Of a DNA stretch of 32,562 bases, positions 3,744 to 26,204 are shown piece by piece. A model generated the notes under the pieces. That model ran no database searches, was not told the origin of the DNA, and saw only the letters and a list, made by a program, of their open reading frames with translations. Numbering within the stretch: the first letter of the stretch is position 1; each line of letters opens with the position of its first letter. A program made the position numbers and the translations under genes. Where the stretch lies: positions 1 to 32,562 of the forward strand of contig CAISWQ010000039.1 in NCBI GenBank assembly GCA_903889245.1, read 5' to 3'. This DNA is from an uncultured Lentisphaerota bacterium (GTDB taxonomy: Bacteria > Verrucomicrobiota > Kiritimatiellia > CAIQIC01).

Positions 3744-3759
3744 ATCTGTTCCAGTCCGC

Positions 3760-4570: not shown

Positions 4571-4687
4571 TCAAAAGGAGCCCTGTTCCTTTGGCTGGAG
4601 GACTTCATGTAAGTCAGGCTCCAGCAGCCAGACTTCAACGGCCTGACGCCCCGCAGCGTCATGGGCACGCCGACTAACGGCTCGCAT
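4571..4687 (-). pseudogene. Frameshifted second copy of the tail fragment seen at 1-126
   Basis: Read leftward from an ATG at 4687, this 38-codon frame gives SRRAHDAA, RQAVEVWLLEPDLHEVLQP and ends early at a TGA. Shifting phase near the end recovers FEVNGLK, which corresponds to FDANGLK of the first copy. No ribosome-binding site precedes it. It is best seen as the remnant of a duplicated gene end rather than a working gene. Confidence 0.3.
4593..4675 (-). repeat. Inverted repeat, right copy
   Basis: This is the reverse complement of 1-83 at roughly 88% identity without gaps. Weaker similarity continues leftward to about 4552. Together the two copies bracket the toxin/immunity genes and the IS-interrupted genes in opposite orientations. 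Confidence 0.85.
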
Positions 4688-4760
4688 ATTGAGGAGTATA
4701 GCTCGCGGGCAGTTTTCGATCCAGCTTTTTGACCGTATGAGACGAGAGCGAGAGTTTCAC
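4674..4760 (-). CDS. Very short frame after the cysteine-rich gene
   Basis: A GTG overlaps the stop of the upstream gene as GTGA and opens 28 codons containing HTVKKLDRKLPASYTPQYAS, ending exactly where the inverted repeat begins. The 4-bp overlap suggests a genuine last gene of the integrative operon cut short by the rearrangement that brought in the repeat. At this length it could equally be chance. Confidence 0.3.
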   Translation of the reverse strand: MKLSLSSHTVKKLDRKLPASYTPQYASR

Positions 4761-5308: not shown

Positions 5309-5631
5309 TGGACACCGCCGGTGATCTTGTCCAATCCTCGCGTCGCGAATTGCTCAATCTCTTCGCGGCGGTAGCGCGTGCAACCGCCGATGAGCACCGG
5401 CTTGAGGATACCTTGGCGAGTAAGTCGCCAGATGGTCTGGCGGGAGAGCCGCAATTCCCGCGCGGTCTCGGTCGGCGTCAAGAGCAGCGTCGCCGGCCGG
5501 TTGGTACGGGCGTTCTCCAGGGCCGCCAGCATGGTGGCGCGTTTCGCAGGCGATGCGGTCAACAGTTCGCGGATCGCTTGTTCAGGGGTCATTCCCGCCT
5601 TGTCGTTCTTCTGCATGGTTTCCATCTTCAT
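5305..5631 (-). CDS. Excisionase-like helix-turn-helix protein (MerR/Xis type)
   Basis: This is a 108-residue protein. The C-terminal half is a helix-turn-helix_17/excisionase domain: LTPTETARELRLSRQTIWRLTRQG, then the wing VLIGGCTRYRREEIEQF. The N-terminal 50 residues are helical and not part of that family. Next to a tyrosine integrase such a protein typically acts as recombination directionality factor or as transcriptional regulator of the element. It overlaps the downstream cysteine-rich gene by 4 bp. The start could also be the ATG at residue 3 or 6. Confidence 0.72.
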   Translation of the reverse strand: MKMETMQKNDKAGMTPEQAIRELLTASPAKRATMLAALENARTNRPATLLLTPTETARELRLSRQTIWRLTRQGILKPVLIGGCTRYRREEIEQFATRGLDKITGGVQ

Positions 5632-5671
5632 CTCTCACAGTTCCCGGTTCACACAGCGGGCGGCAGGTGGC

Positions 5672-5830
5672 ATGGCCTTTACTCCTTGCGAAGTGCTGGG
5701 CGAAACCGGGCTGGTTGTTCATCGTGGTTACACGATGCCCTTTACCGCCTATACGGTTGGGGAGTTTCAAAACGGGCGGGAAATGAAGCGTCAGAAATTG
5801 CGGCAAGCCCTGCAAATCAAGGCGAAATAG
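5672..5830 (+). CDS. Possible small protein (52 aa) opposing the integrative operon
   Basis: The ATG at 5672 has GCAGGTGG just upstream. The product has an N-terminal beta-like part (GETGLVVHRGYTMPFTAYTV) and a basic C-terminal helix (GREMKRQKLRQALQIKAK). It lies in the gap of about 210 bp between two leftward genes and overlaps neither, which makes it more credible than the antisense shadows elsewhere. I know no family for it. It could be an antirepressor-like or control protein, or chance. Confidence 0.4.
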   Translation: MAFTPCEVLGETGLVVHRGYTMPFTAYTVGEFQNGREMKRQKLRQALQIKAK

Positions 5831-5835
5831 AAATG

Positions 5836-5859
5836 TGAAACTGTTTCAAGAAAGTTTCA
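5836..5859. promoter_or_regulatory. Inverted repeat TGAAACT / AGTTTCA
   Basis: Seven-base perfect arms flank a 10-base centre. The repeat overlaps the end of the leftward gene 5846-6496 and lies just past the end of the small plus-strand ORF. It could be a weak bidirectional terminator or an operator; there is no U-tract on either side. Confidence 0.3.
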
Positions 5860-6496
5860 TGGGGTTACTTACCGTTAGGTTCCGTTGCCGCAGGGGACCG
5901 TTCTTGCCGTGTTTATAGGTGTTGCCGGCGTGTTCGCCTTGTGCCCAGACGCGGCGCATGATGGGGATGTTCTGATCGATCTCGACTTCGTGGAGGAGCT
6001 TGTATGCCTTGCCTACAGAAAACCCAGTACGTTTGGCAGCCTTAGCGATATTGTGGGTATCCAAGTAAGCGGACAGGATGGCTGCTTTCTCGGGATTCTG
6101 GGTTTGTTGGTAAAGTTTGGCGGCGGCATTGAGGAGCGTGGTGGTGTTGGCATTGGCGCGTTCGCGCAGCGGGCCGACACCGGCGTTAATCGCTTGAAGA
6201 GCCTGATGAACCAGCGCCAATAGTTCTTGGGGATCGAGCTGCGGTTCCGCGGGAGGTTTTGTTAAAAGGGCGACAGCATCACGACATTCTTTTACGGCAT
6301 CCTGATAGGAGGGGAGATCGGGATGCAGGTCGCGCATGCCCTCGGACCAAGTCTGAAGTTGCTGAAGACCAGCGAGATCACGCGTGGCACTGAGCGCTAT
6401 AATTTTCTGCCGAGTGTTGGCTAGGTAGCGGGCGGCATTTGAGGCGCGGATGGACTGTTCCATCATCTGCCGACCGCGAGTTTGGTAATCATACAT
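5846..6496 (-). CDS. Helical protein with C-terminal HTH-like segment, integrative element
   Basis: This protein of about 216 residues is predominantly helical and has no signal peptide. Near residues 145-172 it reads AYLDTHNIAKAAKRTGFSVGKAYKLL, which has the spacing of a helix-turn-helix as in terminase small subunits and transposon regulators. The start at 6496 is chosen because GGAGATTTGAGCCC precedes it; an in-frame ATG seven codons earlier lacks such a site. An AT-rich gap (6497-6663) separates it from the integrase upstream and contains TAAAAT (6558-6563, minus), which could be a -10 box without a clear -35. The function is unknown. DNA binding in regulation or replication of the element is an inference. 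Confidence 0.55.
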   Translation of the reverse strand: MYDYQTRGRQMMEQSIRASNAARYLANTRQKIIALSATRDLAGLQQLQTWSEGMRDLHPDLPSYQDAVKECRDAVALLTKPPAEPQLDPQELLALVHQALQAINAGVGPLRERANANTTTLLNAAAKLYQQTQNPEKAAILSAYLDTHNIAKAAKRTGFSVGKAYKLLHEVEIDQNIPIMRRVWAQGEHAGNTYKHGKNGPLRQRNLTVSNPMKLS

Positions 6497-6663
6497 GGGC
6501 TCAAATCTCCATGGCAAATCCGCCAGGCTGACCTGTGGTCTTGATGTGCACGGCCCTATTTTAGCAGACTATTTTTAAACGCAAGCAAGGCCGCGAAACA
6601 GCGGGGAAAAGGCAGGAAATTCCTGGGGAATACCACGTGTTTATGGAAGTCAGCGGCAGAATT

Positions 6664-7851
6664 TCAGACTGCGGCAACTGGCGCAAACGTGATCTCCGGC
6701 AGCGCGGCAATCGCGGCTCGCTTCTGGTCGAAGTCGGCGTGACTGTAGAGCGCGGTCATGGCCGGACTGCCGTGGCCGACCAGATCTTGGATGGCCACCT
6801 GCGGGACGCGGTTAACCGCACAGAGGCTGACGAAGGAATGCCGCAGGCTGTGGAAGCCCTTGCGGACGATGGCGCGCTGGCGGTGCCCGGTCGCCTGCTC
6901 AAAGGTCGCGATACCGCACTCACGCAGGAAGTTCTGGAAGCGTTTGGAGAACGCCGACACCTCGCGAATATATTCGGCGGCTTCTTCGGGGAAGACGTAG
7001 TCCTCACTCTGCGCGACTTGGCGGCGGCGTTCTTCCAACAGTGCGGCCAGAACCGAATGCAAGGGGATCGTCACGGTCTTACCCTTGCGACGGGTCTTGC
7101 GCGGCGTCAGCTCGATCCGTCCAGGTTTGATGGCAGACCAGCGCAGCGTGAGCACGTCACCCAGTCGCAGACCGGTGTAGAGACCAATGGCGAGCATGTA
7201 GCGCATGGTGCCCCGTGCCTTGCGACAGAGCGTCGCCAACTCGTCGGGCGTGAAGTTCAGGCGTCCTTGCGTTTCCTTTTCCAGTTTGCGGATGTGCAGC
7301 CAGGGATTGTCCAAGAGTCCGGCCTTCACACGCAGGGTGGTGAATACCGAGCGCAGGAACTGGATGTGACCATTGAACGAGCGTGGCGAGAACTTGCCGC
7401 GCCAGAGATCCCGCGCGTAGTCATCGGCGTGGGCGTCACTGACGTCGTGCAGATGTTGGATGTTATGGAGCTTCGCCCAGTCAATGAACCGCTGCCACGT
7501 GGCCCGATAGCCGGCGATGGTCGTGGCGCAGGGGTTACCCTTCTGCGGCGAGGCGAGCCATTCCTTCCAAGTATCATCGAGCGTGATGGGCGTCAGCGCC
7601 ATCGCGCTAAGCTGGCGCGACAGGCGTAACCGCATCTCAATCTGTTCTTTGGTGGGCAGGCGGCCGATGCATTCCTGCAGCACGATGAACTGTTTGATGA
7701 TCGTGCCCTCACCGCGCGCCGCGGCCTTGGCCGCGTTGGCAATGTCTTGGGCGGAACTGCGGTCGGTCTCGCCCGTGCTGACCCAGGCTTGCCGCCCATT
7801 CCGCGACAAGCGGTACCAGTAAATCTTTCCACGTTTGAAAACTTTCGGCAT
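6664..7851 (-). CDS. Tyrosine recombinase/integrase of a mobile element
   Basis: This 395-residue integrase catalyses site-specific integration and excision of the element. An N-terminal Arm-type region (KRGKIYWYRLSRNGRQAWVSTG) comes first, then a SAM-like core-binding domain at about residues 90-185 (DTWKEWLAS through RKLEKE), then the catalytic domain. All active-site residues are visible: Arg229 in GLYTGLRLGD, Lys256 or Lys258 in TRRKGK, His334 and Arg337 in HSLRHSF, His360 in LVGHGS and nucleophile Tyr369 in ALYSH. GGGGA precedes the ATG. The gene faces away from the fucosidase cluster, at the right edge of the island, as integrases usually do next to their attachment site. Confidence 0.92.
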   Translation of the reverse strand: MPKVFKRGKIYWYRLSRNGRQAWVSTGETDRSSAQDIANAAKAAARGEGTIIKQFIVLQECIGRLPTKEQIEMRLRLSRQLSAMALTPITLDDTWKEWLASPQKGNPCATTIAGYRATWQRFIDWAKLHNIQHLHDVSDAHADDYARDLWRGKFSPRSFNGHIQFLRSVFTTLRVKAGLLDNPWLHIRKLEKETQGRLNFTPDELATLCRKARGTMRYMLAIGLYTGLRLGDVLTLRWSAIKPGRIELTPRKTRRKGKTVTIPLHSVLAALLEERRRQVAQSEDYVFPEEAAEYIREVSAFSKRFQNFLRECGIATFEQATGHRQRAIVRKGFHSLRHSFVSLCAVNRVPQVAIQDLVGHGSPAMTALYSHADFDQKRAAIAALPEITFAPVAAV

Positions 7852-8049: not shown

Positions 8050-8079
8050 AGTGCGCCGCGCTTTACGAAAGGAATGATT

Positions 8080-11000
8080 ATGAAGGCGAACGGCTGGCTG
8101 GCGGGTCTGGTTTTTCTGGCGATGACGGGCGGCGCGCAGGCGGAAGGGCTGGCGCTCAAGCAGGATGGACCGCTGTTCGAGGTCGCGCCGTGCAAGGCGC
8201 TCGACCAGACCGAGGAGCTCACGCTCGAAGCCTGGGTCCAGGCCGAGAGGATGAAGGGCGGCGGCGGGCGGATTCTCGATAAGTCCACTTCCGGCACGTC
8301 CGAGGGCTACATGCTCGACACGCATCCGGGCAACTCGCTGCGCTTCCTGACCATGGGCGGCACGCTCACGTTCAAGGCGAACCTGCCGGCGAAGAAGTGG
8401 AGCCACGTGGTCGGCGTCTTCAGCGTGGCCCAGAAGAAAATGCAGCTCTTCCTCGACGGCAAGGAGGTCGCCAGCCGCAAGGGCGACCTCAAGCCGATGA
8501 CGGTCACCAAAAATCCGCTGCGCCTCGGCAGCGATCCGCGCGGCGACAACCGCTTCCACGGGCGCCTCGCGCGCGCGGCGGTCTATGGCCGCGCGCTGAC
8601 GGTGGAAGAAGTGACGCAGCGTTGCACGGCGGGGGCGGCCAACGCCGCGGCGCTGCCGGGCGTGCTCGGCGACTGGAAGTTCACCGCCGAACCAACGGGC
8701 GAAATCAAGCCGGTCGCGGGCACGCTCGCCCTGCGGCAGGCGCGGGGCGATAGCAGCGCCGTGGCGAGCGGGCCGAGCGCGGAAATTTCCGGCGCGGCCG
8801 CGGCGCCGGAAGCGCCGCTCTGCCTGTGGTATCGCCAGCCCGCCAAGCAGTGGGACGAGGCGTTGCCGGTCGGCAACGGCATCATGGGCGCGATGGTCTA
8901 TGGCGGCGCGCCAACCGAGCACATCCAGTTCAACGAGCACACGGTCTGGACCGGCCAGCCGCATTCCTACGCGCACACGAACGCCGTCGCCACGCTGCCG
9001 AAAATCCGCGCGCTGCTCCAAGAGATGCGCGCGGCACACCGCGCGGCGAGCAAGCTGGACCCGAAGTGGGAAGCGAAAGCGGCGCAGGAGAAGGTCAAGG
9101 AGGCGCGCGCCAAACAGAAGGAAGCCGATGACCTCGCCATGCGGGAATTCATGAGCGAGCCGCTGAAGCAGAAGGCCTATCAGCCGTGCGGCGATCTCTT
9201 CCTCGACTTCGCCGGACACGACAAGGTGAGCGACTACCGCCGCTGGCTCGATCTCGATACGGGCGTAGTGGCCACCGAATACAAGGCCGGCGGCGTGGCC
9301 TTCCGCCGCGAGGTGTTGGCCTCGCATCCCGACCGCGCGGTCGTCGTGCGCGTGACGGCCGACCAGCCGGGCAAACTCGACTGCGTCATCCGCCTCGGCA
9401 GCGCGCATAAGGACGTGAAGTACAGCGTGGAGGGCAGCGACACGCTCGTGATGAACGGGCTGGTGGAGGAAGGCGGCATCCGCTTCGAGGGCCGCGCCGT
9501 GGTCGCGGCCGAGGGCGGCCGCGTCGCGGCGGAGCCGGAGGGCGTGAGGGTCGCGGGCGCGAGCGCGCTCGTCATCAGGCTGGTGGCGGCGACGAACTTC
9601 AAGAATTTCCGCGACCTCGGCGGCGACCCGACGGCGGGCGCGCAGGACCTGCTGAAAATTTCCGCGGGCAAGCCGTGGGCGCAGTTGCGGCAGGCGCACG
9701 TCGCGGATCACCAGACGCTGTTCAAGCGCGTCGCGCTCGACCTGGGCCGGACCGCCGCCGCGCAGTTGCCGACCGATGAGCGCATCAAGGCGTTCGCCAC
9801 CGGCGATGATCCCGCGCTCGCCACGCTGCTGTTCCAGTACGGGCGCTACCTGCTGATCGGCTCCAGCCGCGAGGGCGGCCAGCCCGCGAACCTGCAAGGC
9901 ATCTGGAACGACAAGCTGCGCCCGCCGTGGGACAGCAAGTACACCTGCAACATCAATACCGAGATGAACTACTGGCCCGCCGAGCCGGCGGCGCTCGGCG
10001 AATGCCACGCGCCCCTGTTCGTCGCGCTCGGCGAACTCGCGCAGTCGGGTGCGGAAGTCGCGAAGGAGCACTACGGCGCGGGCGGCTGGGTGGTCCACCA
10101 CAACTTCGACCTCTGGCGCGGCGCGGCGCCGATCAACGCCGCCAACCACGGCATCTGGGTCACCGGCAGCGGTTGGATGGCCACGCACCTCTGGGAACAT
10201 TTCCAGTTTACGCAGGACCGCGACTTCCTCGCGAAGACCGCCTATCCGCTGATGAAGGGCGCGGCGCAATTCTACGCCGACTTCCTCTTCGAGGATCCGC
10301 TCACCGGCTGGTTGGTCAGCGGCCCCTCGAATTCGCCGGAGCAGGGCGGACTCGTCACCGGCCCGACGATGGACCACGCGATCATCCGCTGCCTCTTCCA
10401 GCAGACCGCCGAGGCCGCGCAACTGCTCGGCACCGATGCCGACCTCGCCGCGAAACTCACCAAGCTCGCCAAACGCATTGCGCCCAACCAGGTCGGGCAG
10501 TTCGGCCAGTTACAGGAATGGGTCGAGGACCGCGCCGACCTCGATAATCCCAAGAACCAGCACCGCCACTGCTCGCACCTCTGGGGCCTTTATCCCGGCG
10601 ACGACATCACGTGGCAGGACAAGAAATTCTTCGAGGCTGCCAGGCAATCGCTGCTCTACCGCGGCGACGCCGCGACCGGCTGGAGCATGGGCTGGAAGGT
10701 CAACTTCTGGGCGCGCTTCCTCGATGGCGACCACGCGCTCGTCATCCTGAAGAACCTGATCACGCCGATCTGGCTGAAGAAGGGCCATGGTGGGCTTTAC
10801 GCGAACATGTTCGACGCGCACCCGCCCTTCCAGATTGACGGCAACTTCGGCGCCGCCGCCGGCATCGCGGAGATGCTGCTGCAGAGCCACATTCGGATAC
10901 CTGAGACCAGGGACCTGAAACCTGAAAACGAGCCCGCCGGACTTCAGGTTTCAGGTCTCAAGTCTCAAGTTTTCCTTCTGCATCTGCTCCCTGCCCTGCC

Positions 11001-11175
11001 CTCGACATGGCCGACCGGCTCCGTCACCGGCCTGCGCGCGCGCGGCGGCTTCGTCGTGGATATCGCCTGGAAGGATTGCAAAGTCACCAGCTACCGCATC
11101 GCCTCCGCCACGCCGCGCACCGTGCAGGTCAAGGTCAATGGCGAACTGAAGAAAGTCCAAGCGGATAAATTGTGA
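8080..11175 (+). CDS. Secreted GH95 alpha-L-fucosidase with N-terminal LamG-like domain
   Basis: This 1031-residue inverting fucosidase should remove terminal alpha-L-fucose, typically alpha-1,2-linked. Residues 1-22 are a signal peptide (cleavage near AQA-EG). A LamG/concanavalin-like module spans about 25-200 ([36 protein letters not shown]). The GH95 part runs from [19 protein letters not shown] near 245 to the end. Catalytic motifs agree with the family: Asn624 and Asn626 in [12 protein letters not shown], the acid Glu754 in SNSPEQG and Asp920 in FQIDGNFG. The ATG at 8080 is chosen because AAAGGA lies 6 bp upstream; an ATG two codons earlier is too close. A repeat-derived insert of about 28 residues lies at 10894-10975. 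Some GH95 enzymes act on L-galactosides, so the substrate is not certain. Confidence 0.92.
10894..10975 (+). repeat. In-frame hairpin insert of 7-bp word repeats, copy 1
   Basis: GACCTGAAACCTGAA and TTCAGGTTTCAGGTC form a 15-bp perfect inverted repeat around a 16-base GC-rich loop. The segment encodes RIPET, DLKPEN and [10 protein letters not shown], splitting the usual GH95 sequence between LLQSH and LLPALP. An almost identical segment occupies the same place in the second GH95 gene. Confidence 0.85.
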
Positions 11176-14085: not shown

Positions 14086-16782
14086 ATGCACAACAGGTAT
14101 CTGGCGGTCGCGGTGGTGATGTTGGCGGGGATGGCGCAGGCGGGCGACCCGCTGACCCTGTGGTATGACAAGCCGGCGCAGGATTGGCAGAAGGAGGCGC
14201 TGCCGGTCGGCAACGGACGCCTCGGCGCGATGCTCTTCGGCGGCGTACAGCGCGAGCACATCCAGTTCAACGAGTCCACCCTCTGGCTTGGCGACGAGAA
14301 CGACACCGGCGCCTACCAGGCTTTCGGCGATGTGTTCGTTGATTTCGGCGGCGGGCCGATGTCGGCGGAGTGTGCGAGCGGGCAGGCATCGCCGGGCGGT
14401 CAATCGGTTGAGGCCAGCGTTGACGGCAAGCCGGCGACGAAGTGGTGCATGGAGCATGGCGGCAAGCCCGCCGTGTGGATCGGACACTTCGCGAAGGAGA
14501 CGGCCATTCCCTCGTACGCCTTCACGTCCGGCGGCGACATGCCGGCGCGCGATCCGAGGTCGTGGACGCTGGAGGGCTCGAACGACGGCGCGACGTGGAA
14601 GCTGCTCGACAAGCACGAGAACGAGCCGCCGTTTGCGGAACGCGGACAGCGGAAGGAATACACGTTCGCGAACGACGCGAAGTTCCTGCACTACCGCTTC
14701 ACGTTTTTCGATCACGGATCGAAGACGCATTTCCAGGTCGCGGAAATCGAGCTTGGGCCGCAACGGAACGCGAAGGCCGCTCCCGCAAAGTACCGCCGCG
14801 AACTCGATATCGGCCGCGCGGTCCACACGGTGACCTACGAGAGCGGTGGCGTGCAGTTCCGCCGTGAGGCTTTTGCCAGTCACCCGGCCGAGGTGGTGGT
14901 GTTCCGCTTCACCGCCAACCAGCCGGGCGCGCTCACCGGCTCGGTTGCGCTGACCGACATGCACCAGGGGAAGATCGTCGCGGAGGGCAACCGGCTGACC
15001 GCGTCGGGCTCGCTCGCGGGCTATGCCTATAAGGAAGGCTCGGCGCAGGCCGAGTCGCCGCACAAGCCGTACAAGCTCGCGCTCGACTACGAGGCGCAGG
15101 TGCTCGTCCGCAACACGGGCGGCACGTTGGCGGCGGCGGATGGAAAGCTCGTGTTCACGGGCGCGGACAGCCTCACGATCTTCCTCAACGCGGGCACGGA
15201 TTTCGTCCAGGACCGCGCGCGGGGTTGGCGCGGCGAACACCCGCGCGCGAGGATCGCGCGCCAGTTGCAGGCGGCGTCGGAAACGCCGTTCGAGAAATTG
15301 CGCGCGGAGCACGAGGCGGATCACCGGAAGCTCTTCGACCGCGTCACGCTGACGCTGGGTCAGCACCCGGATACGACAGAGCAGACCAATCCGACGGATA
15401 TGCGACTCCTGCACTACACGCAGGGTACGCCCGACCCCGGACTGGAGGCGCTGGTCTTCCAGTACGGCCGCTACCTGCTGATCAGTTCATCGCGCGAGCT
15501 GCTGCCGGCGAATTTGCAGGGCGTCTGGAACAACTCGATCCGCCCGGCCTGGCGCTGCGATTATCACACCGACATCAACGTGCAGATGAACTACTGGCCC
15601 GCCGACGTCGCGAACTTGTCCGAATGCTTCAGGCCCTACGCGAAGTGGCTCAACTCGATCCGCGAGGTGCGCAAGGAGGCGACGAAGGCGGAGTTCAAGA
15701 CGCGCGGCTGGACGATGCGCGCGGAGAACGGCGTCTTCGGCGGCTCGACGTGGCAGTGGGTCGAGTCGGGCAGCGCGTGGTGTATGCAGAACATCTGGGA
15801 GCATTACGCGTTCACCGGCGACAAGGAGTATCTCCGCGCGCTGGCCTACCCGATGATGAAGGAGGTCTGCGAATTCTGGCTCGACCGGCTCAAGGCGCTG
15901 CCCGATGGCACGCTCGTCGCGCCGAACGGCTACTCGCCCGAGCACGGCCCGCGCGAGGACGGCGTCGCGCACGACCAGCAACTGGTCTGGGACGTGTTCA
16001 ACAACACGGTCGAGGCCGCCGACGCGCTCGGCGTGGACCGCGAGTTCCGCAACGAGCTTGCCGCGAAGCGCGATAAACTGCTCGGACCGAAGATCGGCAA
16101 GTGGGGCCAGCTTCAGGAATGGATGGTGGATCGCGATGACCCGAAGGACACGCACCGCCATCTCTCGCATCTCGTCGCGGTGCATCCCGGCCGGCAGATC
16201 ACGCCGGCGACCACCCCGCAGTGGGCCGAGGCCGCGCGCGTCTCGCTCAACGCGCGCGGCGATGTCAGCACCGGCTGGAGTACCGCGTGGAAGATCAATC
16301 TCTGGGCGCGGCTGGGCGATGGCGAGCGCGCCTACAAGCTCATGCACAACCTGCTCCGCCTCGTCGGCGATACGCGCATGAACTACAACCGCGGCGGCGG
16401 CCTCGCCGCGAACCTCTTCGACATGCATCCGCCGTTCCAGATTGACGGCAACTTCGGCTACACCGCCGGTGTCTGCGAAATGCTGCTGCAGAGTCACACC
16501 CGGATACCTGAAACCGGAAACCTGAAACCTGAAAATGAGTCCGCCGGACTTCAGGTTTCAGGTCTCACGCCTCAAATTTCCCTGCTACACCTTCTCCCCG
16601 CCCTGCCCAAGGCGTGGTCCTCCGGCGCCGTCACCGGCCTGCGCGCGCGCGGCGGTTTCACCGTGGACATCGAATGGAAGGACGGCAAGGTCACCGGCTA
16701 CCGCATCACCTCGCCCCACCCCCAGCCGGTCAGGCTCCGCCTCGGGGACAAAGTGCGCACCATCACCTCCACGCCGCCCTGA
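14086..16782 (+). CDS. Secreted GH95 enzyme with nested discoidin-like domain
   Basis: This 898-residue enzyme has a signal peptide ending in MAQAG. The GH95 N-terminal sheet starts at [12 protein letters not shown] and is interrupted at about residues 92-234 by an F5/8-type C (discoidin, CBM32-like) module: [31 protein letters not shown] and FQVAEIEL. It resumes at [11 protein letters not shown]. Catalytic positions: Asp496 and Asn498 in [11 protein letters not shown] (the first is Asn in the other copy), acid Glu619 in YSPEHG and Asp787 in FQIDGNFG. The repeat-derived insert (16501-16582) lies before [14 protein letters not shown] precedes the ATG. Amino-acid similarity to the first GH95 is moderate, so the two may differ in linkage or sugar (fucose or L-galactose). 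Confidence 0.9.
16501..16582 (+). repeat. In-frame hairpin insert of 7-bp word repeats, copy 2
   Basis: ACCTGAAACCTGAA and TTCAGGTTTCAGGT form 14-bp perfect arms. The loop contains the smaller palindrome GTCCGCCGGAC. It matches 10894-10975 at about 72 of 82 bases by eye and encodes RIPET, NLKPEN and LQVSGL at the same place in the GH95 fold. Confidence 0.85.
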
Positions 16783-17791: not shown

Positions 17792-18364
17792 TCAACGCGC
17801 CTGAAAAACCGGCAGGCGGTCGGCGGGGATGTCGGCGAGGCAGGGATAGGAACTATCCTTGCCGGAGAGAATGGGCTGGGTGACCGGCCAGGCAATCCGC
17901 AAGGCGGGATCGTTCCAGGCAAGGCCGCCATCGTCAGTGGCACGGTAAAAGTCACTGCACTTGTAATGGACGTCGGCCAGCTCGCTCATGACGCAGAAGC
18001 CGTGCGCAAAGCCCGCGGGGATGAACACCAACTGCTGGTTTTCATCGGATAGCGGAAAACACGCCTTCTGTCCGAACGTGGGTGAACCCCGACGGATATC
18101 CACGACCACATCAAAAACCTCACCGCGGATGACGCTGACCAGCTTGGCCTGCGGATGCCGCACCTGATAATGCAATCCGCGCAAGGCGCCGCGGATGGAC
18201 CGCGAATGATTATCCTGCACAAAGGCACAGGTCACCTGCTGCGCGGCCAGTTTGTCGGCGTGATACGTCTCGCGAAAGTAGCCGCGCGGGTCGTGATAGG
18301 TTTGGGGCGTGAACAACAGCACCCCCGGCAGGACCGTCGGCTGGCAGAGCAGATCAGACATCAT
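17792..18364 (-). CDS. rfbC: dTDP-4-dehydrorhamnose 3,5-epimerase
   Basis: RmlC, 190 residues, a cytosolic cupin that epimerises dTDP-4-keto-6-deoxyglucose at C3 and C5, the third step of dTDP-L-rhamnose synthesis. Family marks: DPRGYFRETYHADK, FVQDNHSRS, RGLHYQ with the catalytic His, EVFDVVVDIRRGSPTFG, IPAGFAHGF and VHYKCSDFY. The length is normal. Two adjacent ATGs follow CCAGGATGGA; the second (18361) has the better spacing. It is the last gene of the leftward operon, 11 bp after rmlA. There is no room for a terminator between it and the convergent transporter. Confidence 0.95.
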   Translation of the reverse strand: MMSDLLCQPTVLPGVLLFTPQTYHDPRGYFRETYHADKLAAQQVTCAFVQDNHSRSIRGALRGLHYQVRHPQAKLVSVIRGEVFDVVVDIRRGSPTFGQKACFPLSDENQQLVFIPAGFAHGFCVMSELADVHYKCSDFYRATDDGGLAWNDPALRIAWPVTQPILSGKDSSYPCLADIPADRLPVFQAR

Positions 18365-18375
18365 TCCATCCTGGT

Positions 18376-19242
18376 TCAGTTTTGCAGCAACCGCAGCAGG
18401 TAACGGCCATAGTCGGTTTTGCCCAGCCCCTCGGCCAGCCGGCGCAATTGCGTCCGGGTGATATAACCCTGGCTGTAGGCGATCTCCTCCAGACAGGCGA
18501 TCTTCAGCCCCTGCCGCTCCTCGATGGTCTGGACGAAATTCCCCGCCTGCAACAGCGACTCGTGCGTACCGGTGTCGAGCCAGGCCAGCCCGCGCCCGAA
18601 CAACTCGACCCGCAGCGCGCCGCGTTTGAGGTACACGCGGTTGAGATCGGTGATCTCCAGTTCGCCCCGCGCCGAGGGCTTGAGTCCGGCGGCAACCTGG
18701 ACCACGGAGTTGTCATAGAAATAAAGGCCGGGCACGGCGAAGTTCGACTGGGGCTGCGCCGGTTTTTCCTCGAGGCCCAGCACCCGGCCGCGCCGGTCGA
18801 ACGCCACCACGCCATAGCGCTCGGGGTCGCGGACGGGATAGCCGAAAATCAGGCCGCCCTTGCGCAACCGGCCCGCGCGCCGCAGCACCGCGGAGAAACC
18901 GTGGCCGAAGAAAATGTTATCGCCCAGGATCAGGCAGACGCTGTCACGCCCGATGAACGAACGGCCGATGATGAACGCCTGCGCCAGCCCCTCGGGGCGC
19001 GGCTGTTCGGCGTAGGCGAACCGCAGCCCCCATTGCGTGCCGTCGCCCAGCAACTCGCGGAAGCGCGGCAAATCCTGCGGCGTGGAAATGATGAGAATGT
19101 CGCGTATGCCGGCGAGCATGAGCACCGACAGGGGATAGTAGATCATCGGTTTGTCATACACCGGCAGCAGTTGCTTGCTCACGACGCGTGTGATGGGATG
19201 CAGTCGCGTGCCCGCCCCGCCTGCCAAGATGATACCCTTCAT
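18376..19242 (-). CDS. rfbA: Glucose-1-phosphate thymidylyltransferase
   Basis: RmlA, 288 residues, makes dTDP-glucose from dTTP and glucose-1-phosphate, the first step of dTDP-L-rhamnose synthesis. The start [18 protein letters not shown] holds the nucleotide-binding GGxGTRL. Then come [33 protein letters not shown] and [10 protein letters not shown]. The ATG at 19242 overlaps the rmlD stop as ATGA and is preferred over an upstream in-frame extension that lacks family similarity. The length is typical of short-form RmlA. Confidence 0.96.
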
Positions 19243-20144
19243 GACGTCTGTCCTTTTGCTGTTAGCCACGCCCGCGCCTCTTCTAACAATTCGTCCCGAT
19301 GCCGCGCAACAAATTCCGCGAGTTCCGCCTCCCACGACCGCATCACATGTAAGCCGGCCTGCTTCAGCCGGGCATTTTCCAGGATCGAGTTCAGCGGCCG
19401 CCGCGCGGGCAACGGGTAAGCGGCCACCGTGCAGGGCGCCAGTTTGTGCGGCACCGCCAGCGCCGTCAGAAACTTCTCCGCCAAGTCGAACCAGGTGGCG
19501 TGGCCCCCGGCGGTCGCGTGGAAGACACCTGTGGCGCCCGCGCTGATGACAGTCTCAATCTGCTCCGCCAGCCGCCAGGACCAGGTCGGCGAGCCCCATT
19601 GCTCCGCGATGACCGGGCGCTCGCGCTCCGGTTCCGCGAGGGCGAGGCGCAGCATCGTCTTGGGGAAATTGCCGCCGTACCGCCCATAGAGCCAGGCCGT
19701 CCGCAGGATGGCAAAGCGGGCGCCGCTGGCCTGCACGGCCTGCTCGCCGGCCAGCTTCGAGGCGCCATAGGCCGAGAGCGGGTGCGGCGCGTCGTTTTCC
19801 TGGTAGGGCTGCGGTACCGGCCGCGCGCCATCAAACACATAGTCGGTGGAAATCTGCACCAGCAGCGCTCCGGCCGCGCGCGCCGCCGCGGCCAGGAGCC
19901 GCGGGGCCTCGGCGTTGACGCGCAAGGCCAGTGCGCGCTGCACCTCGCAGGCATCCACACGCGTGAACGCCGCACAGTTCACGATCACGTCAGGCCGCGC
20001 CGCGGCGACGCGGTCGCGCACCTGCGCGCCAGCGGTGATGTCGAACTCCGGGAGATCGGTGGCGATAAGCTCGTGGCGCGCCCCGAGCACCGCCTGACAA
20101 TCGCGGCCCAACTGGCCGCGCGCGCCGGTGAGCAGGATTTTCAT
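19239..20144 (-). CDS. rfbD: dTDP-4-dehydrorhamnose reductase
   Basis: RmlD, 301 residues, NAD(P)H-dependent short-chain reductase for the last step to dTDP-L-rhamnose. It starts [15 protein letters not shown] (nucleotide-binding GxxGxxG) and carries [21 protein letters not shown] and the catalytic [10 protein letters not shown]. It overlaps both neighbours by ATGA. dTDP-glucose 4,6-dehydratase (RmlB), needed between RmlA and RmlC, is not in this window and must be encoded elsewhere. Confidence 0.95.
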
Positions 20145-20701
20145 GGTGGGGACGCGGGTGGCTTGGGGTCCTCGGGCCGGGTGCGCTCCAGCGCCTCCAG
20201 GCGTTGCTCGAGCAGCGCCACGCGTCGCGCGGTGCGCGCCACATCGTCACGCGCGCGGGAGAGCATGATGGAAAAGTGGAAGGACACCAGCAGCAGGAAG
20301 GCAAACACCACGATGACAATGGCGGTGACATACTGCATGCCGGTGACACGCTGAAGCCAGGCCAGGATGGTCGTGGGATAGAGCGCAAAAACCAGAATGA
20401 CCAAGCCGGTGGCGACCCAGAGCAAGGCATAGCGCTCGTGCATCTGGGTCCGGCGCACCGCCTCCAGCGTGGCGATGAGCATCAGGAAGCTCAAGAGCCC
20501 GGTGACCACCCGCAGCTTGAGTTCCATTGTCACCCGGTCCGCCGTGAGTCCCGGCGTGATGCCCGACAGGAACAGCACCAGCACAATACCGAGCAAGAGT
20601 CCTGCGATGGCCAGCCCACGCCGCCGTTTGCGCAACGCGACGAAGGCCAGCCCGCTGACCAGCACCAGTACGCCGCCCAGGATGGTAAGCAGATGCGTCA
20701 T
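20141..20701 (-). CDS. DUF2304 membrane protein
   Basis: This is a 186-residue inner-membrane protein with about four hydrophobic segments: LLTILGGVLVLVSGLAFVAL, GLAIAGLLLGIVLVLFL, LLWVATGLVILVFAL and TAIVIVVFAFLLLVSFHFSI. The ERYALLWVATGLVILVFALYPT block and the C-terminal coiled helix VALLEQRLEALE are typical of DUF2304, which commonly accompanies DPM1-like GT2 enzymes. It is sandwiched by 4-bp overlaps between the GT2 gene and rmlD. A role with the GT2 partner in moving or using a polyprenyl-linked sugar is inferred from this pairing. Confidence 0.8.
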   Translation of the reverse strand: MTHLLTILGGVLVLVSGLAFVALRKRRRGLAIAGLLLGIVLVLFLSGITPGLTADRVTMELKLRVVTGLLSFLMLIATLEAVRRTQMHERYALLWVATGLVILVFALYPTTILAWLQRVTGMQYVTAIVIVVFAFLLLVSFHFSIMLSRARDDVARTARRVALLEQRLEALERTRPEDPKPPASPP

Positions 20702-21450
20702 GGGTGGCCGTCCCCCGTCAGCGCCTGCCGCGCCAGCCGCGCATCCACAGCCCGCGCACGATCCACGAGCAGGGCCAGGGTCACCTTGAGCGCATAATAG
20801 AACGCGGTGCGCCGGCCGATGCTCGAACGCCCCGCCTGGCGCTCCCGGAAGGCGACCGGCGCCTCGGCGACGCGATAGCCCTGCCGCGTCAGCAGCGCCA
20901 GCGATTCCGGTTCGGGGTAGTCCGCCGGGTAGGTCGCCGCGAAGAAGCGGAGGGCATGGTGGTTGACCAGTTGAAAACCGCTGGTCGGGTCGGTGATGCG
21001 CTGGCGGCAGGCATAGGTCAGCAGGCGGGCCAGCGCGCCGATCGCCACACTGCGCCAGCGCGTGCTGGTGACCGCGCCCTGGCCGAGGAAGCGCGAACCG
21101 ATGACCACGTCGGCGCCCATCTCGCGCTGCGTCGCGAACAGCCGGGGAATTTCCGCGGGCGGATGCTGACCATCGCCATCAATGCGGAGGGCATAGCGGC
21201 AGCCGCGCGCCACCGCCAACGCAAACCCCGCCTGCATCGCACCGCCGACCCCGAGGTTGCAGGGCAGGTCGAGCACCAAGGCTCCGCGCGCGCGGGCGAC
21301 GCCGGCGGTGTCATCGCTGGAACAATCGTTGATCACGGCCACCGGCAGCCCGGGGTAGAGCGCGGCCACCTCGTCCAGCAGCGGGCCCAGCGCGGCCGCC
21401 TCGTTGAACGCGGGAATGAGCAGTATGGTTTCGCGTTGCCAGTGATCCAT
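20698..21450 (-). CDS. Family 2 glycosyltransferase (DPM1/polyprenyl-phosphate type)
   Basis: This 250-residue transferase probably moves a sugar from a nucleotide donor onto polyprenyl phosphate or a glycan. GT-A features: ILLIPAFNEAAALGPLL, the nucleotide-binding AVINDCSSDDT, the metal-binding RIDGDGQH near residues 98-105 and the VIGSRFLGQG block of DPM-like enzymes. It has no long C-terminal membrane region. The DUF2304 partner may supply the membrane anchor. The start at 21450 follows GAGGCAAGACC. It heads the five-gene leftward operon. Confidence 0.85.
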   Translation of the reverse strand: MDHWQRETILLIPAFNEAAALGPLLDEVAALYPGLPVAVINDCSSDDTAGVARARGALVLDLPCNLGVGGAMQAGFALAVARGCRYALRIDGDGQHPPAEIPRLFATQREMGADVVIGSRFLGQGAVTSTRWRSVAIGALARLLTYACRQRITDPTSGFQLVNHHALRFFAATYPADYPEPESLALLTRQGYRVAEAPVAFRERQAGRSSIGRRTAFYYALKVTLALLVDRARAVDARLARQALTGDGHP

Positions 21451-21556
21451 GGTCTTGCCTCGTGCCGTCGGCGGGAGGATAGCGGCTCCGGCGTAGCGCC
21501 ACAAACAAGAAAACGGGGCGCCATCAGGCTGCCGCGCCGGCGCGACCGGGGCCGAC

Positions 21557-21604
21557 GTTCCAAGGTTGGGAACGGCAGGCCGGTTGTTTTCCAAGGCTTG
21601 GAAA
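21557..21604. repeat. Two phased copies of the TTTTCCAAG palindrome
   Basis: GTTCCAAGGTTGGGAAC (21557-21573) is degenerate. TTTCCAAGGCTTGGAAA (21588-21604) is perfect. Their CC steps are 31 bp apart. They lie in the divergent region between the leftward GT2 operon (start 21450) and the rightward regulator/export operon (start 21729), so they could affect either. Confidence 0.85.
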
Positions 21605-21728
21605 TCCCGCTGCCGCCGGACGGGTGAAATTGGGGCTCGACAACCGCGTCACCGCCGGTTACAAGTTTCACACTTTTCTGAAAGTTCACAATGCCGCGGC
21701 CGACCGCGGCGGCGGGAAAGGCGGGCCT

Positions 21729-22259
21729 ATGGGACGAACAACCAAGGACACAAGCGAAACGGCGGCGCGACCGCTGGCGCGCGAGGTGCGCCGGCGCCTG
21801 GCGGCCGCCGGCGGCCGGACCTCGCACGACCTCGGTCTCGGCCGCATCGTCGGGCAGATGGTGGTCTATCTCTATCTCTGGGAGGGCGACTGCTCCCTGG
21901 ATCAGATCGCGGAGGAACTGGGCTTGAGCAAGGCGGCGGTCAGTGTGGCCGCACGCCAGCTCGAACACCTTGGCCTGATCCGCCGGACGTGGCGCGAGGG
22001 CGACCGGCGCAAGTACTACCGGACCGCGGACAACATCGGCATCGCCCTGCGCCAGGGCCTGTTGAGCATCGTCCTCAACAAGATCGAGGCCATGGCGGGC
22101 GAGTTGGATGCCGCGCAGGCCGCCCTGGCCGCGGGCTCACGTCAGGAGGCCGACCTCCAGTTTCTGGCGGGGCGCGTGAAGCGCGCCCAAGTGCTGCGCG
22201 AGCGGGCCGACAAGATGCTCGGTCATCCGTTGCTCTCCCTGCTCATCCCGAACCGGTGA
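21729..22259 (+). CDS. GbsR/MarR-like winged-helix regulator
   Basis: This is a 176-residue DNA-binding protein. The winged helix spans about residues 40-110: GQMVVYLYLWEGDCSLDQIAEELGLSKAAVSVAARQLEHLGLI, then the wing RRTWREGDRRKYY. The GRIVGQM lead-in and the C-terminal helices resemble the GbsR subgroup. The ATG at 21729 is chosen because GGGAAAGGCGGG precedes it. It opens the operon for polysaccharide export, 5 bp before the permease, and faces the GT2/rhamnose operon across a 278-bp divergent gap. Control of one or both operons is likely by position. The effector is unknown. Confidence 0.78.
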   Translation: MGRTTKDTSETAARPLAREVRRRLAAAGGRTSHDLGLGRIVGQMVVYLYLWEGDCSLDQIAEELGLSKAAVSVAARQLEHLGLIRRTWREGDRRKYYRTADNIGIALRQGLLSIVLNKIEAMAGELDAAQAALAAGSRQEADLQFLAGRVKRAQVLRERADKMLGHPLLSLLIPNR

Positions 22260-22264
22260 ACACG

Positions 22265-23143
22265 ATGCCAGCCCGTTCTCCCATGAAAACGGCCGCGAGT
22301 GCGGTGGTGCTCTATACCGCGGACTCGCGGCGGCGCACGGGTTTCTGGCGCAGCCTGGCGGGCATGGCGGGCAATATCTGCCGCGCCCGCGAGCTGATCC
22401 GGCAACTGTTCATTCGCGACTATCTGGCGGTACACAAGAAGTCCTTCCTCGGCCTGGCGTGGATCGTTCTCGCGCCGGTGGTGGCCACCTTGTCATGGCT
22501 GTTCATGAACGCGGCGGGCGTCCTGCAGCCGGGGACCACCGGCGTTCCCTACCCCGTTTATGTCCTGCTGGGCACAACGCTGTGGGGCCTCTTCACCGGT
22601 TTCTACCAATCGGCCACGCAGACCCTGACGGCGGCCCAGAGCTACATTCTCCAGGTCCGCTATCCACACGAAGTGTTGCTGGTGAAACAGGCGCTGGAAC
22701 AAACGGTCAATTTCGCGGCGGCGCTGGCGGTCAATCTGCTGGCGTTCCTGTGGTTCGGCGTGCGGCCCAGTTGGCTGCTGCTCCTGTTGCCGCTGACCAC
22801 CCTGCCGTTGTTCTTCCTGGGCGCGGGACTGGGTTTGATCATGGCCGTGCTGGGCGTGGTGGCCGCGGAATTCAAGCGCCTCTGCGAGGTCGCACTGGGC
22901 CTGATGTTGTTCATCACGCCGGTGCTCTACAATCCGGCCGCGCTCGGTCCGCGCTTTCAGGAGGTGCTGCGCTGGAATCCGCTGACGCACCTGCTCGACA
23001 CGGCGCGCAGCACGATGCTCGCCGGCACGGTGCCGGACCCGCTGGCGTTCGCCTGCTCCAGCCTCTTTGCCCTGGCCGTCTTTCTGCTGGCCTGGCGGTT
23101 GTTTTATGTCTCGGAACACCGCGTGATCGAAAAGCTCTTTTGA
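22265..23143 (+). CDS. wzm: O-antigen/polysaccharide ABC exporter, permease
   Basis: This 292-residue ABC-2 type inner-membrane protein moves a finished polyprenyl-linked polysaccharide across the membrane. The start LIRQLFIRDYLAVHKKSFLGLAWIVLAPV is the amphipathic entry helix of Wzm/TagG permeases, followed by six hydrophobic segments and a late FITPVLYNP with RFQEVLRWNPLTHLLDTAR. The ATG at 22265 lies 5 bp after the regulator stop; an ATG six codons later is an alternative. Its ATPase partner begins 6 bp downstream. Confidence 0.9.
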   Translation: MPARSPMKTAASAVVLYTADSRRRTGFWRSLAGMAGNICRARELIRQLFIRDYLAVHKKSFLGLAWIVLAPVVATLSWLFMNAAGVLQPGTTGVPYPVYVLLGTTLWGLFTGFYQSATQTLTAAQSYILQVRYPHEVLLVKQALEQTVNFAAALAVNLLAFLWFGVRPSWLLLLLPLTTLPLFFLGAGLGLIMAVLGVVAAEFKRLCEVALGLMLFITPVLYNPAALGPRFQEVLRWNPLTHLLDTARSTMLAGTVPDPLAFACSSLFALAVFLLAWRLFYVSEHRVIEKLF

Positions 23144-23149
23144 GGACGC

Positions 23150-24394
23150 ATGGAACTCGCGCACGACACCGTCATTCAGGTTGCGGGGCTGCACAAGAAA
23201 TTCTGCCGCCACCTGCGGCGCAGCATGTTCTATGGCACGCTGGACGTGACGCGCGACATGCTCGGCTGGCGCTACGCAACCGGTGTGTTGCGGCCGCGTG
23301 AGTTTTGGGCGCTGGAGGACGTGAGCTTCGAGCTCAAGCGGGGCGAGGCGCTGGGCATCATCGGGCCGAACGGCTCCGGCAAGACCACGCTGCTGCGCAT
23401 TCTCAACGGCATTTTCCCGCCGGACCGTGGCTGGGCGGCGGTCCGGGGCCGGATCGGCGCGCTGATCGCCGTCGGCGCCGGCTTCCACCCCAACATGACC
23501 GGCCGGGAGAACATCCGGCTCAACGGCACGATTCTGGGCCTGACCCGCCGCGAGATCGAGGAGCGGTTCGAGGCGATCGTGGAGTTTGCCGACATCGGTG
23601 AATTTCTCGACGCCCCGGTGGCCACCTATTCCTCCGGCATGACGGTGCGGCTGGGTTTTGCCATCGCGGTTCACGCCACGCCGGAAATCCTGCTGGCCGA
23701 CGAGGTGCTCGCCGTCGGCGACCTGCGTTTTGCGCTCAAGTGCTACCGCAAGATCGCGGAATACCGCCGCAACGGCGGTGCGTTGCTGCTGGTCAGTCAC
23801 TCGATGCAACTGGTCCGCAACGTCTGTCACCGGACGCTGTGGCTGGAGCACGGGCGCGTCCGGCAGTTGGGCGAAACCCAGGCGGTCTGCGACGCCTACG
23901 AACGCGACGTGCTGCAGCGCAGCGCCACCGCCACCAGCCGCGAGGACATCGTGCGCATCAATCACGATCCACTGGTGCAGATCGAGCGGGTGGAGTTTCT
24001 CGATGAACAGGGCCGGGCCTGCGCGGCCTTTCCCGTCGGCGCGCGGTTCCGTGCCCGCATCCATTACCACTGCCGGCGCCAGGTGACCGCGCCCATTTTT
24101 ACCCTGGCCCTGACCACGGTGGAGAACATCACCGCCGTGGCGAATTACTCCAACCTGGACGCCCCGCATCTGCTGGCGACCGCCGCAGGCCGCGGCTGGG
24201 TGGATTTTGAAATTGCCCAGCTCGCCCTCAAGCCGGGCAACTATGACTGCACGGTCAATCTCGAGGAACAAGCGCTGGACAACGTGCTCGACTGGCATGA
24301 GCGCGCCTACCGGTTTGCCGTGATCAGCGCCGAAAGTCCGTTGATGCACGGGTTGTTCCAGCCGTCCGTCCGGTGGGAGGCGGGCCGTCCATGA
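23150..24394 (+). CDS. wzt: O-antigen/polysaccharide ABC exporter, ATPase with C-terminal glycan-binding domain
   Basis: This is a 414-residue ATPase. Walker A is GPNGSGKTT near residue 75, the signature is YSSGM, Walker B is ILLADE and the H-loop is LVSHSMQ. The TGREN and GAGFHPNMTG strings are typical of the Wzt/TagH branch. Residues from about 275 form a Wzt_C beta-sandwich (VGARFRARIHYHC, PGNYDCTVNLEE) that in studied systems reads the capped end of the chain. Its presence suggests that export needs a terminal modification, fitting the methyltransferases downstream. The stop overlaps the next ATG (ATGA). Confidence 0.93.
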   Translation: MELAHDTVIQVAGLHKKFCRHLRRSMFYGTLDVTRDMLGWRYATGVLRPREFWALEDVSFELKRGEALGIIGPNGSGKTTLLRILNGIFPPDRGWAAVRGRIGALIAVGAGFHPNMTGRENIRLNGTILGLTRREIEERFEAIVEFADIGEFLDAPVATYSSGMTVRLGFAIAVHATPEILLADEVLAVGDLRFALKCYRKIAEYRRNGGALLLVSHSMQLVRNVCHRTLWLEHGRVRQLGETQAVCDAYERDVLQRSATATSREDIVRINHDPLVQIERVEFLDEQGRACAAFPVGARFRARIHYHCRRQVTAPIFTLALTTVENITAVANYSNLDAPHLLATAAGRGWVDFEIAQLALKPGNYDCTVNLEEQALDNVLDWHERAYRFAVISAESPLMHGLFQPSVRWEAGRP

Positions 24395-25332
24395 TGTGCG
24401 CCTGCCCAGCTTGCGACGCCGCCCTCGCCCAGAAGGCCAGCAACGCCTACGTGGTCTGCCCCGCCTGTGGCACGTGGGTGTTGCAGGCGGACGCCCCGGC
24501 CGGGGAGGACAACGCGGCGTATTTCAACGCGCACTTCCGCGAGAAAGCCTCGGCACAGCCCGATGAGCGCAAGCGCCGCATTTTTCAGGCGGCCGAGCAA
24601 CGCGACCATGCGCGGCGGGCTGCGGAGCAGGACCGCTTTCTGACCCACGTGCAGAACCTGCAGGCGCAACTCCTGCAGCCGGGCCAGCGTGTGCTTGAGA
24701 TCGGCTTCGGAGACGGCGACGTGCTCGCCCGCCTGTTGCAGTCCGGCGTGGACGCCTGGGGTGAGGACCTCGCGTTGACCGCTGTGCGGAATTTCCAGGA
24801 GCAGCATCCGGGTTATGCCCGGCGTGCAGGCCTTCCGGGCGCCACGGCGGGCGCCTTCCACCTCATCTATGCCGCCGCCCTCTTTGAGCATCTGGATGAC
24901 CCGCGGGTTTTTCTGCATGACATCCAGAAGCGGCTGCAGCCCGGTGGCCGGCTGGTGTTGGACCAGATTCCGCTGGCCAGCGCCGGCCCCGCCGATCTCT
25001 CGCCGGCCGATGACATCTGTTTTTGGAAACCCTGTCATCGCGTGTTGCACTCGCTGGCCGGCCTGCAACAGTTGGCGGGCGCGACAGGTTTCCGCGTGCT
25101 GGCCGTGGCCGCGATGGATAGCTTCAACTACCGCGTCTTGAGCCTGCATCGCCGCGCCGGTTATCCGGCCATCGAAACCTTGCGCAATGCCTGCCTGGTG
25201 GACGCGCGCCTGCCGGGACTCCTGCGCTACCGCTGGCTGTGCTGGCGCGCACAACACATCCGGTCACGCTGTCAGGTGGCCTCGGTTGTTTTGCAACCCC
25301 TGGCAGCCGATACACAGGGAGCACCGACATGA
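24391..25332 (+). CDS. SAM-dependent methyltransferase with N-terminal zinc ribbon
   Basis: This is a 313-residue cytosolic enzyme. Residues 3-30 hold two CxxC pairs (CPAC near the start and CPACGTW), a zinc ribbon. The class I Rossmann core begins at RVLEIGFGDGDVLARLL (SAM-binding glycines), with an LPGATAGAFHLIYAAALFEHL motif and RLQPGGRLVLDQIP. The arrangement resembles sugar or glycan methyltransferases with zinc-binding N-termini. Next to Wzt_C it could add the chain-terminating cap. The target atom is not evident. Both ends overlap neighbours by 4 bp. Confidence 0.8.
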   Translation: MMCACPACDAALAQKASNAYVVCPACGTWVLQADAPAGEDNAAYFNAHFREKASAQPDERKRRIFQAAEQRDHARRAAEQDRFLTHVQNLQAQLLQPGQRVLEIGFGDGDVLARLLQSGVDAWGEDLALTAVRNFQEQHPGYARRAGLPGATAGAFHLIYAAALFEHLDDPRVFLHDIQKRLQPGGRLVLDQIPLASAGPADLSPADDICFWKPCHRVLHSLAGLQQLAGATGFRVLAVAAMDSFNYRVLSLHRRAGYPAIETLRNACLVDARLPGLLRYRWLCWRAQHIRSRCQVASVVLQPLAADTQGAPT

Positions 25333-26201
25333 GCTGGCTGGAACCTCTGCGGCAACGTCTGGATGCCTTGCTCCTCAAGCGCGTCCCCTTCCGGCCCGCC
25401 CTGCGCCGCGACCTGGCGCGGTATTTCATCGGCGATGCGCAGGCGTTCAGCGAAGTGCTGGAGGTCGGCCGGCAGCAGACCGGCGACGCGCCCTTGCGCG
25501 CGTTCGATGCGGCGCTGGCCCGGCACGGCGGGCAGCTCAGTTTTTCCCAGACCGGCGAAGACCTGATCGTGGACTACATTTTCCGCGTCCTGGGCATCAC
25601 ACGCCCGACCTATCTCGATCTGGGCGCCTTCGATCCGTGGGCCTTGAGCAATACCGCCCGCCTCTATTTGCGTGGCTCGCGGGGCGTCAACATCGAGCCG
25701 AACCCGGAGCAGTTCCAGCACTTTCTGCGCAGCCGCCCCGACGATCAAAATCTCAACGTGGGCATAGCCGCCGCCGCCGGTACGCTGACCTACCATGTCC
25801 TGGACGCCGCCACCTTGAACACTTTCTCGCGCACGGAGGCCGAGCGCTGTGTCCGCGAGGAGGGGCATCGGATTCTCAAGGAGCTGCCGATCCCGGTGCT
25901 CACGTTGACCGAGGTTCTCGCAAAGCATTGTGGTGGCGTCTGCCCGGATTTTCTGTCGGTGGACATCGAGGGCCTGGATCAACTGGTTGTCGCCACCCTC
26001 GCCGCGCAGGCCGCCAAGCCCAAGGTCGTCTGCATCGAAACCATCTCCTATTCGCGCGGCGGCCAGGGCCGCAAGGACGAGGCCCTCGTGCAGGCCCTGC
26101 GGGCGTGCGGCTATCTGCCGTTCGCCGATACCAACATCAACACGATCTTCGTGCTGGAGTCTCTGTGGCGGGGCGGGGCCGGCGCCACTGGGCACACCTG
26201 A
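25329..26201 (+). CDS. FkbM-family methyltransferase
   Basis: This is a 290-residue O-methyltransferase of the FkbM type. Marks: SFSQTGEDLIVDYIF, PTYLDLGAFDPWALSNT (SAM-binding strand 1), GVNIEPNPEQF (strand 2 acidic residue) and the later PDFLSVDIEGLD. Such enzymes in polysaccharide loci methylate sugar hydroxyls. The ATG at 25329 overlaps the upstream stop as ATGA. The next gene starts 3 bp after its stop, so all six rightward genes behave as one operon. Confidence 0.87.
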   Translation: MSWLEPLRQRLDALLLKRVPFRPALRRDLARYFIGDAQAFSEVLEVGRQQTGDAPLRAFDAALARHGGQLSFSQTGEDLIVDYIFRVLGITRPTYLDLGAFDPWALSNTARLYLRGSRGVNIEPNPEQFQHFLRSRPDDQNLNVGIAAAAGTLTYHVLDAATLNTFSRTEAERCVREEGHRILKELPIPVLTLTEVLAKHCGGVCPDFLSVDIEGLDQLVVATLAAQAAKPKVVCIETISYSRGGQGRKDEALVQALRACGYLPFADTNINTIFVLESLWRGGAGATGHT

Positions 26202-26204
26202 ACC

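Follow-up and report, generated by a model that had tools for sequence, protein, structure and literature searches.

The 32,562-nucleotide stretch of DNA analysed here, hereafter the window, comes from an uncultured Lentisphaerota bacterium and contains two genes coding for GH95 family proteins. The first (8074-11175, + strand) encodes a protein with an N-terminal LamG domain (PF13385, residues 40-180, E 2e-25), as an earlier note on this DNA had proposed, and, according to Pfam and alignment, without a nested module. The second, an open reading frame at 14086-16782 on the + strand, encodes an 898-amino acid GH95 family protein, identified by Pfam and by a fold match to FucOB (7zo0), in which a CBM32-like module is nested. 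With LamG in the first enzyme and CBM32 in the second, it is plausible, judging from sequence, that the two target glycans differently. An IS-type transposase and a phage-type integrase (2808-7851) lie upstream of the GH95 block, another phage-type integrase occupies the other end (31010-31996), and the GC content is 0.51-0.59 before position ~8000 and 0.64-0.72 after it. Since the window is the whole contig, both a genomic island and a chimeric contig are possible.

The second GH95 protein starts with a signal-peptide-like N-terminus (residues 1-20, 14086-14145), recognized by eye and modelled with pLDDT below 50 at residues 1-16. The N-terminal beta-sandwich is encoded in two halves: residues 24-89 (14155-14352), delimited by PF14498 and by model strands up to the one at residues 81-86, and residues 236-375 (14791-15210), delimited by the model and by a PF14498 stretch at 215-375. 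The (alpha/alpha)6 catalytic domain follows at residues 402-800 (15289-16485; PF22124, E 1.1e-157, 525.7 bits for a cut-off of 27), and the C-terminal domain at residues 833-892 (16582-16761; PF21307, E 8.2e-20). Between the two stretches into which PF14498 is split lies a match to the discoidin profile PF00754 (residues 98-201, E 1.8e-7, 31.8 bits, above the cut-off of 28.2). Combining Pfam, phmmer and the models, we assign the nested CBM32/F5-8 type C module to residues 90-226 (14353-14763, + strand), and the alignment of homologues with and without the insert places a linker leading into the GH95 sheet at residues 227-235 (14764-14790; mean pLDDT of 71 for the block of residues 221-230 in the AlphaFold2 model).

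The existence of a discoidin-like module inside the GH95 N-terminal sheet had been suggested from the letters alone, and the profile searches bear this out: the N-domain is broken after residues 80-89 and resumes at YRRELDIG (236-243), and the F5/8-type C motifs named at the time are present in the segment. The insert is as large as claimed, give or take a few residues (146 instead of 140), and the proposed span of 14358-14790 covers most of the module, missing its first residues and including the downstream linker. A domain search on the inserted segment alone, advised in the earlier note, returned PF00754 (E 5.6e-8, 33.4 bits) and PF22633 (E 1.2e-6). The nearest solved sequence by phmmer is that of 7nsn (E 3.9e-30, well outside what chance would give; runner-up at 0.56).

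Structure prediction, also called for at that stage, presents the segment as a separate domain and not as a part of the GH95 sheet. The AlphaFold2 model of the full protein, built from an alignment of 73 out of 81 sequences, has a mean pLDDT of 89.4 and a pTM of 0.89. The predicted fold is an (alpha/alpha)6 barrel between two beta-sandwiches, with Z scores of 39.5-46.0 to six solved GH95 proteins; the highest corresponds to FucOB 7zo0 (1.5 A over 686 residues of the predicted model). In this full-length model, residues 89-227 align separately to CBM32 domains with Z scores of about 17-18. Modelled alone, the module reaches a pLDDT of 92.8 and matches residues 94-223 of 7nsn with a Z of 21.1 and an rmsd of 1.5 A over 130 residues (34% identity), the next-best match being 2j1a (Z 17.3). 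According to these comparisons of models, the segment is a separate domain, inserted where the strand at residues 81-86 turns into the one at 234-241. The two ends of a CBM32-type fold are close together, and such a module can therefore be spliced into a hairpin while both folds stay intact.

The host itself is probably active, judging from its sequence, since the equivalents of FucOB N387, E541 and D699 (N498, E619 and D787, respectively) are kept in each of 85 GH95 proteins compared, namely the best 80 of 531 candidates from a contig scan for relatives, four other full GH95s of the same genome and the window protein (among the first 88 loci, the window gene itself, L083, and the weak or partial GH95 matches L086-L088 were left out). 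FucOB N385 corresponds to D496 (15571-15573). The first base residue is Asn in FucOB and AfcA according to the available part of the FucOB report (PMC10063614); at this position, 52 of the 85 sequences have Asp and 33 have Asn, and both occur in insert-bearing and in insert-free rows. On sequence features, the protein is a putative GH95 exo-alpha-L-fucosidase that is probably secreted.

The turn that hosts the module is a recurrent insertion site. Among the 85 proteins (best 80 of 531 plus five), the stretch between the two strands measures 148-170 residues in 28 and 8-24 residues in 57, with no intermediate length, and insert-free relatives (among the best 80 of 531) reach 69% identity over the best segment. 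Structure prediction and homologues with and without the insert both support a module that is nested rather than appended, as first proposed. That the 146 residues could be an elaboration of the GH95 sheet instead of a separate domain has virtually no chance of being correct: the segment does fall within the Pfam boundaries of the N-domain, but Pfam, the AlphaFold2 models and the fold comparison concur on a separate CBM32 sandwich, and the short turns of the homologues likewise refute it.

Presence and absence of the insert alternate along the GH95 family. On a core-only tree computed with a quick method, 13 changes are counted, at least 10 of which are forced by starred branches. When a careful tree was computed for 26 rows taken from it, constraining the four nearest insert-bearers to group together was rejected (p 1.9e-8), as was the same constraint on all ten insert-bearers (p 5e-161), both p-values being flattering because the rows and the tested groups were picked after viewing the core tree. 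Module and core identities are correlated across pairs of the 28 insert-bearers (Pearson 0.74), and the main module groups correspond to the main core groups in the trees. These two observations favor an old acquisition followed by many losses over fresh gains, in trees that by themselves give no direction of change. L004 combines a window-type module (65-68% identical) with a core that falls in another group of the tree. The case that it makes for an exchange of modules among GH95 backbones is weakened, as a tree in which the L004 core is forced to join the insert-bearers of the window's group passes the AU test (p 0.109); the p-value of 8.2e-7 from the 26-row tree does not single out L004, because the group of four rows that leaves L004 out is already rejected at 1.9e-8. 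On sequence, L004 may possibly represent a module exchange. Of the repeats detected, a 15-nt imperfect direct repeat within the module and a 12-nt inverted pair, neither occurs at both borders of the insert. Position 750 is the only core residue among the 85 rows to pass a loose filter for segregation with the insert.

The closest solved relative of the module is the CBM32 of NnGH92, whose structure (7nsn) shows contacts with mannoimidazole via Glu105, Phe122, Asp148 and Arg152, according to the accessible portion of the report (PMC10167667). In the alignment to 7nsn, these residues correspond to Q106 (14401-14403), E123, D151 (14536-14538) and R155 (14548-14550). In 61 GH95-hosted module rows, which include genes present in both genome collections (L025/L094 and L028/L116, for example, are pairs with identical modules), the R155 position is always Arg, the D151 position is Asp in 57 and the Q106 position is Glu or Gln in 56. 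The equivalent of Phe122 is absent, with Glu found in 46 of the 61 rows. At the sequence level, conservation extends to the polar side of the pocket but not to its aromatic side. D113, conserved in 60 of the 61 rows, is one residue that we presume to be a candidate ligand of the buried metal ion of F5/8 type C and CBM32 modules. The sugar-binding face attributed to the segment from its motifs thereby gains indirect support.

Conservation of the pocket bears on the possibility that the module is mainly structural, stabilizing or shielding the enzyme or keeping it at a distance from a surface, with weak sugar binding or none. Domain deletions in NnGH92 lowered the Tm by about 10 C and impaired the integrity and the activity of the enzyme, whereas mannan binding was little affected (PMC10167667, as available), so that a structural or minor role is conceivable here too, and the absence of Phe122 points in the same direction. 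Against this stand the conserved Arg, Asp and Glu/Gln equivalents in the GH95-hosted modules, and the existence of GH95s about 69% identical that do without the module, which implies that the module is dispensable for the GH95 fold. We regard a mainly structural role as rather unlikely, while giving it real weight as the chief alternative.

The distribution of the module class was explored with a profile of 27 GH95-nested modules, which by construction favors GH95 hosts, in two overlapping sets: 145 relatives (E 1e-8) and 387 genomes of the phylum (E 1e-20). Matches were found in 24 of the 145 relatives and, with up to ten candidates scored per genome, in 41 of the 387 genomes. The GH95 catalytic domain is detected in 201 of these genomes (E 1e-50, up to four candidates scored per genome), and at least 16 of the 387 code for a module-bearing GH95. 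Across both searches, the same turn hosts the module in 33 of the 34 GH95 proteins examined, including L123, L126 and L161, in which a longer stretch of N-domain precedes it; in one GH95 (L170, 2865-5822, genome G278), a module of the same class is instead attached to the N-terminus (residues 39-179).

Among the 145 relatives, all 21 matches of at least 143 bits fall in GH95 (17) or GH29 (4) proteins. In the 387 genomes, the 34 matches of at least 130 bits are distributed among GH95 (26), GH29 (2), esterases (3) and PSCyt1/WD40 proteins (3). BLAST to the window protein or to L091 identified the majority of the GH95 hosts and part of the GH29 hosts; L163 and L179 were assigned from their position in the module tree, and L159, L160, L177 and L178 were checked with Pfam. 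The hosts of the 70 matches listed in the 387-genome search were examined with the exception of 8, all below 91 bits. The BD-FAE/GDSL double esterases (L159, L160 and L163) carry close copies of the module at their C-terminus, and the PSCyt1/WD40 proteins (L177, L178 and L179) around residues 566-708; these hosts rule out the idea that the module marks fucosidases only. Weaker matches correspond to more distant modules in sulfatases, GH92, TIM-barrel and other proteins.

Nesting also occurs in an unrelated fold. The GH29 alpha-L-fucosidase L091, encoded by the same genome as the window, and module-bearing GH29s of three other genomes (L122, L124 and L125) were aligned with 8 of 12 module-free matches. 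In all four, the C-terminal region is interrupted by the module, and the last ~25 conserved residues follow it. This region of GH29 is a beta-sandwich in structures described in the available text of PMC10154630. A ThuA-family gene (L091:310-1296) adjoins the module-bearing GH29 gene. In the module tree (quick method, 141 columns, 90 rows, 31 open forks), the four modules from GH29 cluster together (100*) within a starred clade that also contains nine GH95-nested modules. Given this mixed clade and the nesting in GH29, a transfer of the module between two fucosidase folds that are unrelated to each other is most likely.

In the 5.26-Mb genome to which the window belongs (G000), only three of 43 F5/8 type C matches are of this module class, namely those of the window gene, of the GH95 L085 and of the GH29 L091. 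Downstream of the GH95 genes in the window lies an O-antigen-type cluster (17795-31010) composed of rmlC, rmlA, rmlD, GT2, an ABC-2 transporter, Wzt, a methyltransferase and a protein with three GT2 stretches, and closed by a GT11-family glycosyltransferase (30153-31010). GT11 is a family of alpha-1,2-fucosyltransferases, which carry out the reverse of the removal catalyzed by GH95. Such a cluster, located about 1-14 kb downstream, could be taken to mean that the module binds the surface polysaccharide of the bacterium itself, from which the enzyme would trim or recycle alpha-1,2-fucose instead of acting on a foreign glycan. We consider this scenario improbable: an integrase gene at each end of the glycan-related genes and several strand changes make it conceivable that the adjacency is accidental, and the genome's 43 F5/8 type C matches, together with its 8 matches to the GH95 profile (seven over the cut-off), look like equipment for polysaccharide degradation.

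In our view, the sequences and models make it fairly likely that a nested, early-acquired CBM32-type module tethers a probably secreted exo-fucosidase to fucosylated glycan. A complete CBM32-type module is hosted in the turn between two strands of the N-terminal beta-sandwich, and the loop would act as a permissive docking site. The module would most likely bind a sugar of a fucosylated polysaccharide through its conserved Glu/Gln-Asp-Arg pocket, in the manner of the NnGH92 CBM32; the two main hosts make a fucoglycan the best guess for its ligand. Once bound, it would keep the enzyme in contact with its substrate, from which the barrel would take off terminal fucose. The module would have been gained early in these GH95s, largely inherited with its host, many times lost or replaced, and passed at least once between GH95 and GH29 fucosidases. 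Several observations count against tethering, including the 57 of 85 GH95s that have no module (best 80 of 531 plus five), the appended module of L170, the missing Phe122, and the close copies found in three esterases and three PSCyt1/WD40 proteins.

More tentatively, and with more doubt than conviction, we suggest that these modules form a CBM32 subclass specialized for nesting, at a single strand turn in the GH95 N-domain and a single turn in the C-terminal region of GH29, copied between both unrelated folds and switched on and off in close relatives. Bacteria might then tune their fucosidases for polymer-bound versus free substrates by means of an exchangeable fucoglycan-binding cassette. 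The GH95s that are about 69% identical, with or without the insert, constitute natural matched pairs for studying the function of nested CBMs, a question left open by the NnGH92 deletions because the host lost its integrity (PMC10167667, as available). Should the module bind fucoglycans, it would offer a ready cassette for fucosidase engineering and would serve, in Verrucomicrobiota and Planctomycetota, to annotate enzymes that degrade fucoglycans. Should it not bind them, it would be a warning against taking every nested discoidin for a working CBM.

Several known systems help to situate this architecture. First, the alpha-1,2-mannosidase NnGH92 of Neobacillus novalis (PDB 7nsn) contains the CBM32 closest to the module in both fold and sequence, likewise set in a loop of a host beta-sandwich domain according to the available text (PMC10167667). 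The equivalents of Asp148 and Arg152 are identical and Glu105 is replaced by Gln, but Phe122 is not kept; moreover, the host of that module is a GH92 and its split domain is CBM-like, whereas here the GH95 N-domain is split. Nesting may, as the earlier note suggested, bring the sugar-binding face close to the active site. In NnGH92, the CBM32 ligand lies ~35 A from the active-site ligand, and about 50% of activity remains without the entire N-terminal part (PMC10167667, available portion). Second, the alpha-1,2-fucosidase FucOB of Akkermansia muciniphila (7znz/7zo0) shares the GH95 core and the equivalents of E541, N387 and D699, but shows nothing equivalent to the module in the alignment and has Asn385 where D496 is found here. 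Its groove-lining loops, to the extent that the accessible text lists them, fall within residues 357-699, in the catalytic domain and outside the N-terminal sandwich (25-260; PMC10063614).

Third, SusG with its CBM58 and GH10 xylanases with CBM4 also have a CBM inserted at a permissive host loop, as summarized in the available part of PMC7848910. Unlike in those enzymes, in which the insertion interrupts the catalytic part (the B domain of GH13 and the TIM barrel of GH10, respectively), the module studied here interrupts an accessory sandwich, and the host folds and CBM families differ from GH95 and CBM32 (PMC7848910). Fourth, AmGH29C and AmGH29D also combine a fucosidase with CBM32, and mucin binding was reported for them, but their CBM32 is appended at the C-terminus, whereas it is nested here in GH95 and GH29 alike. 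In the same Akkermansia study, CBM-bearing fucosidases and sialidases bound mucin, and GH95 enzymes did so weakly or not at all (PMC10067855, as available). No description of a CBM32 nested in GH95 was found in the literature covered, which takes in few subscription journals, nor does one appear in the available text of PMC10067855, PMC10167667, PMC10154630 and PMC8395109. Nested CBMs as such have precedents, and within this coverage we rate a CBM32 nested in GH95 as a new variation on them.
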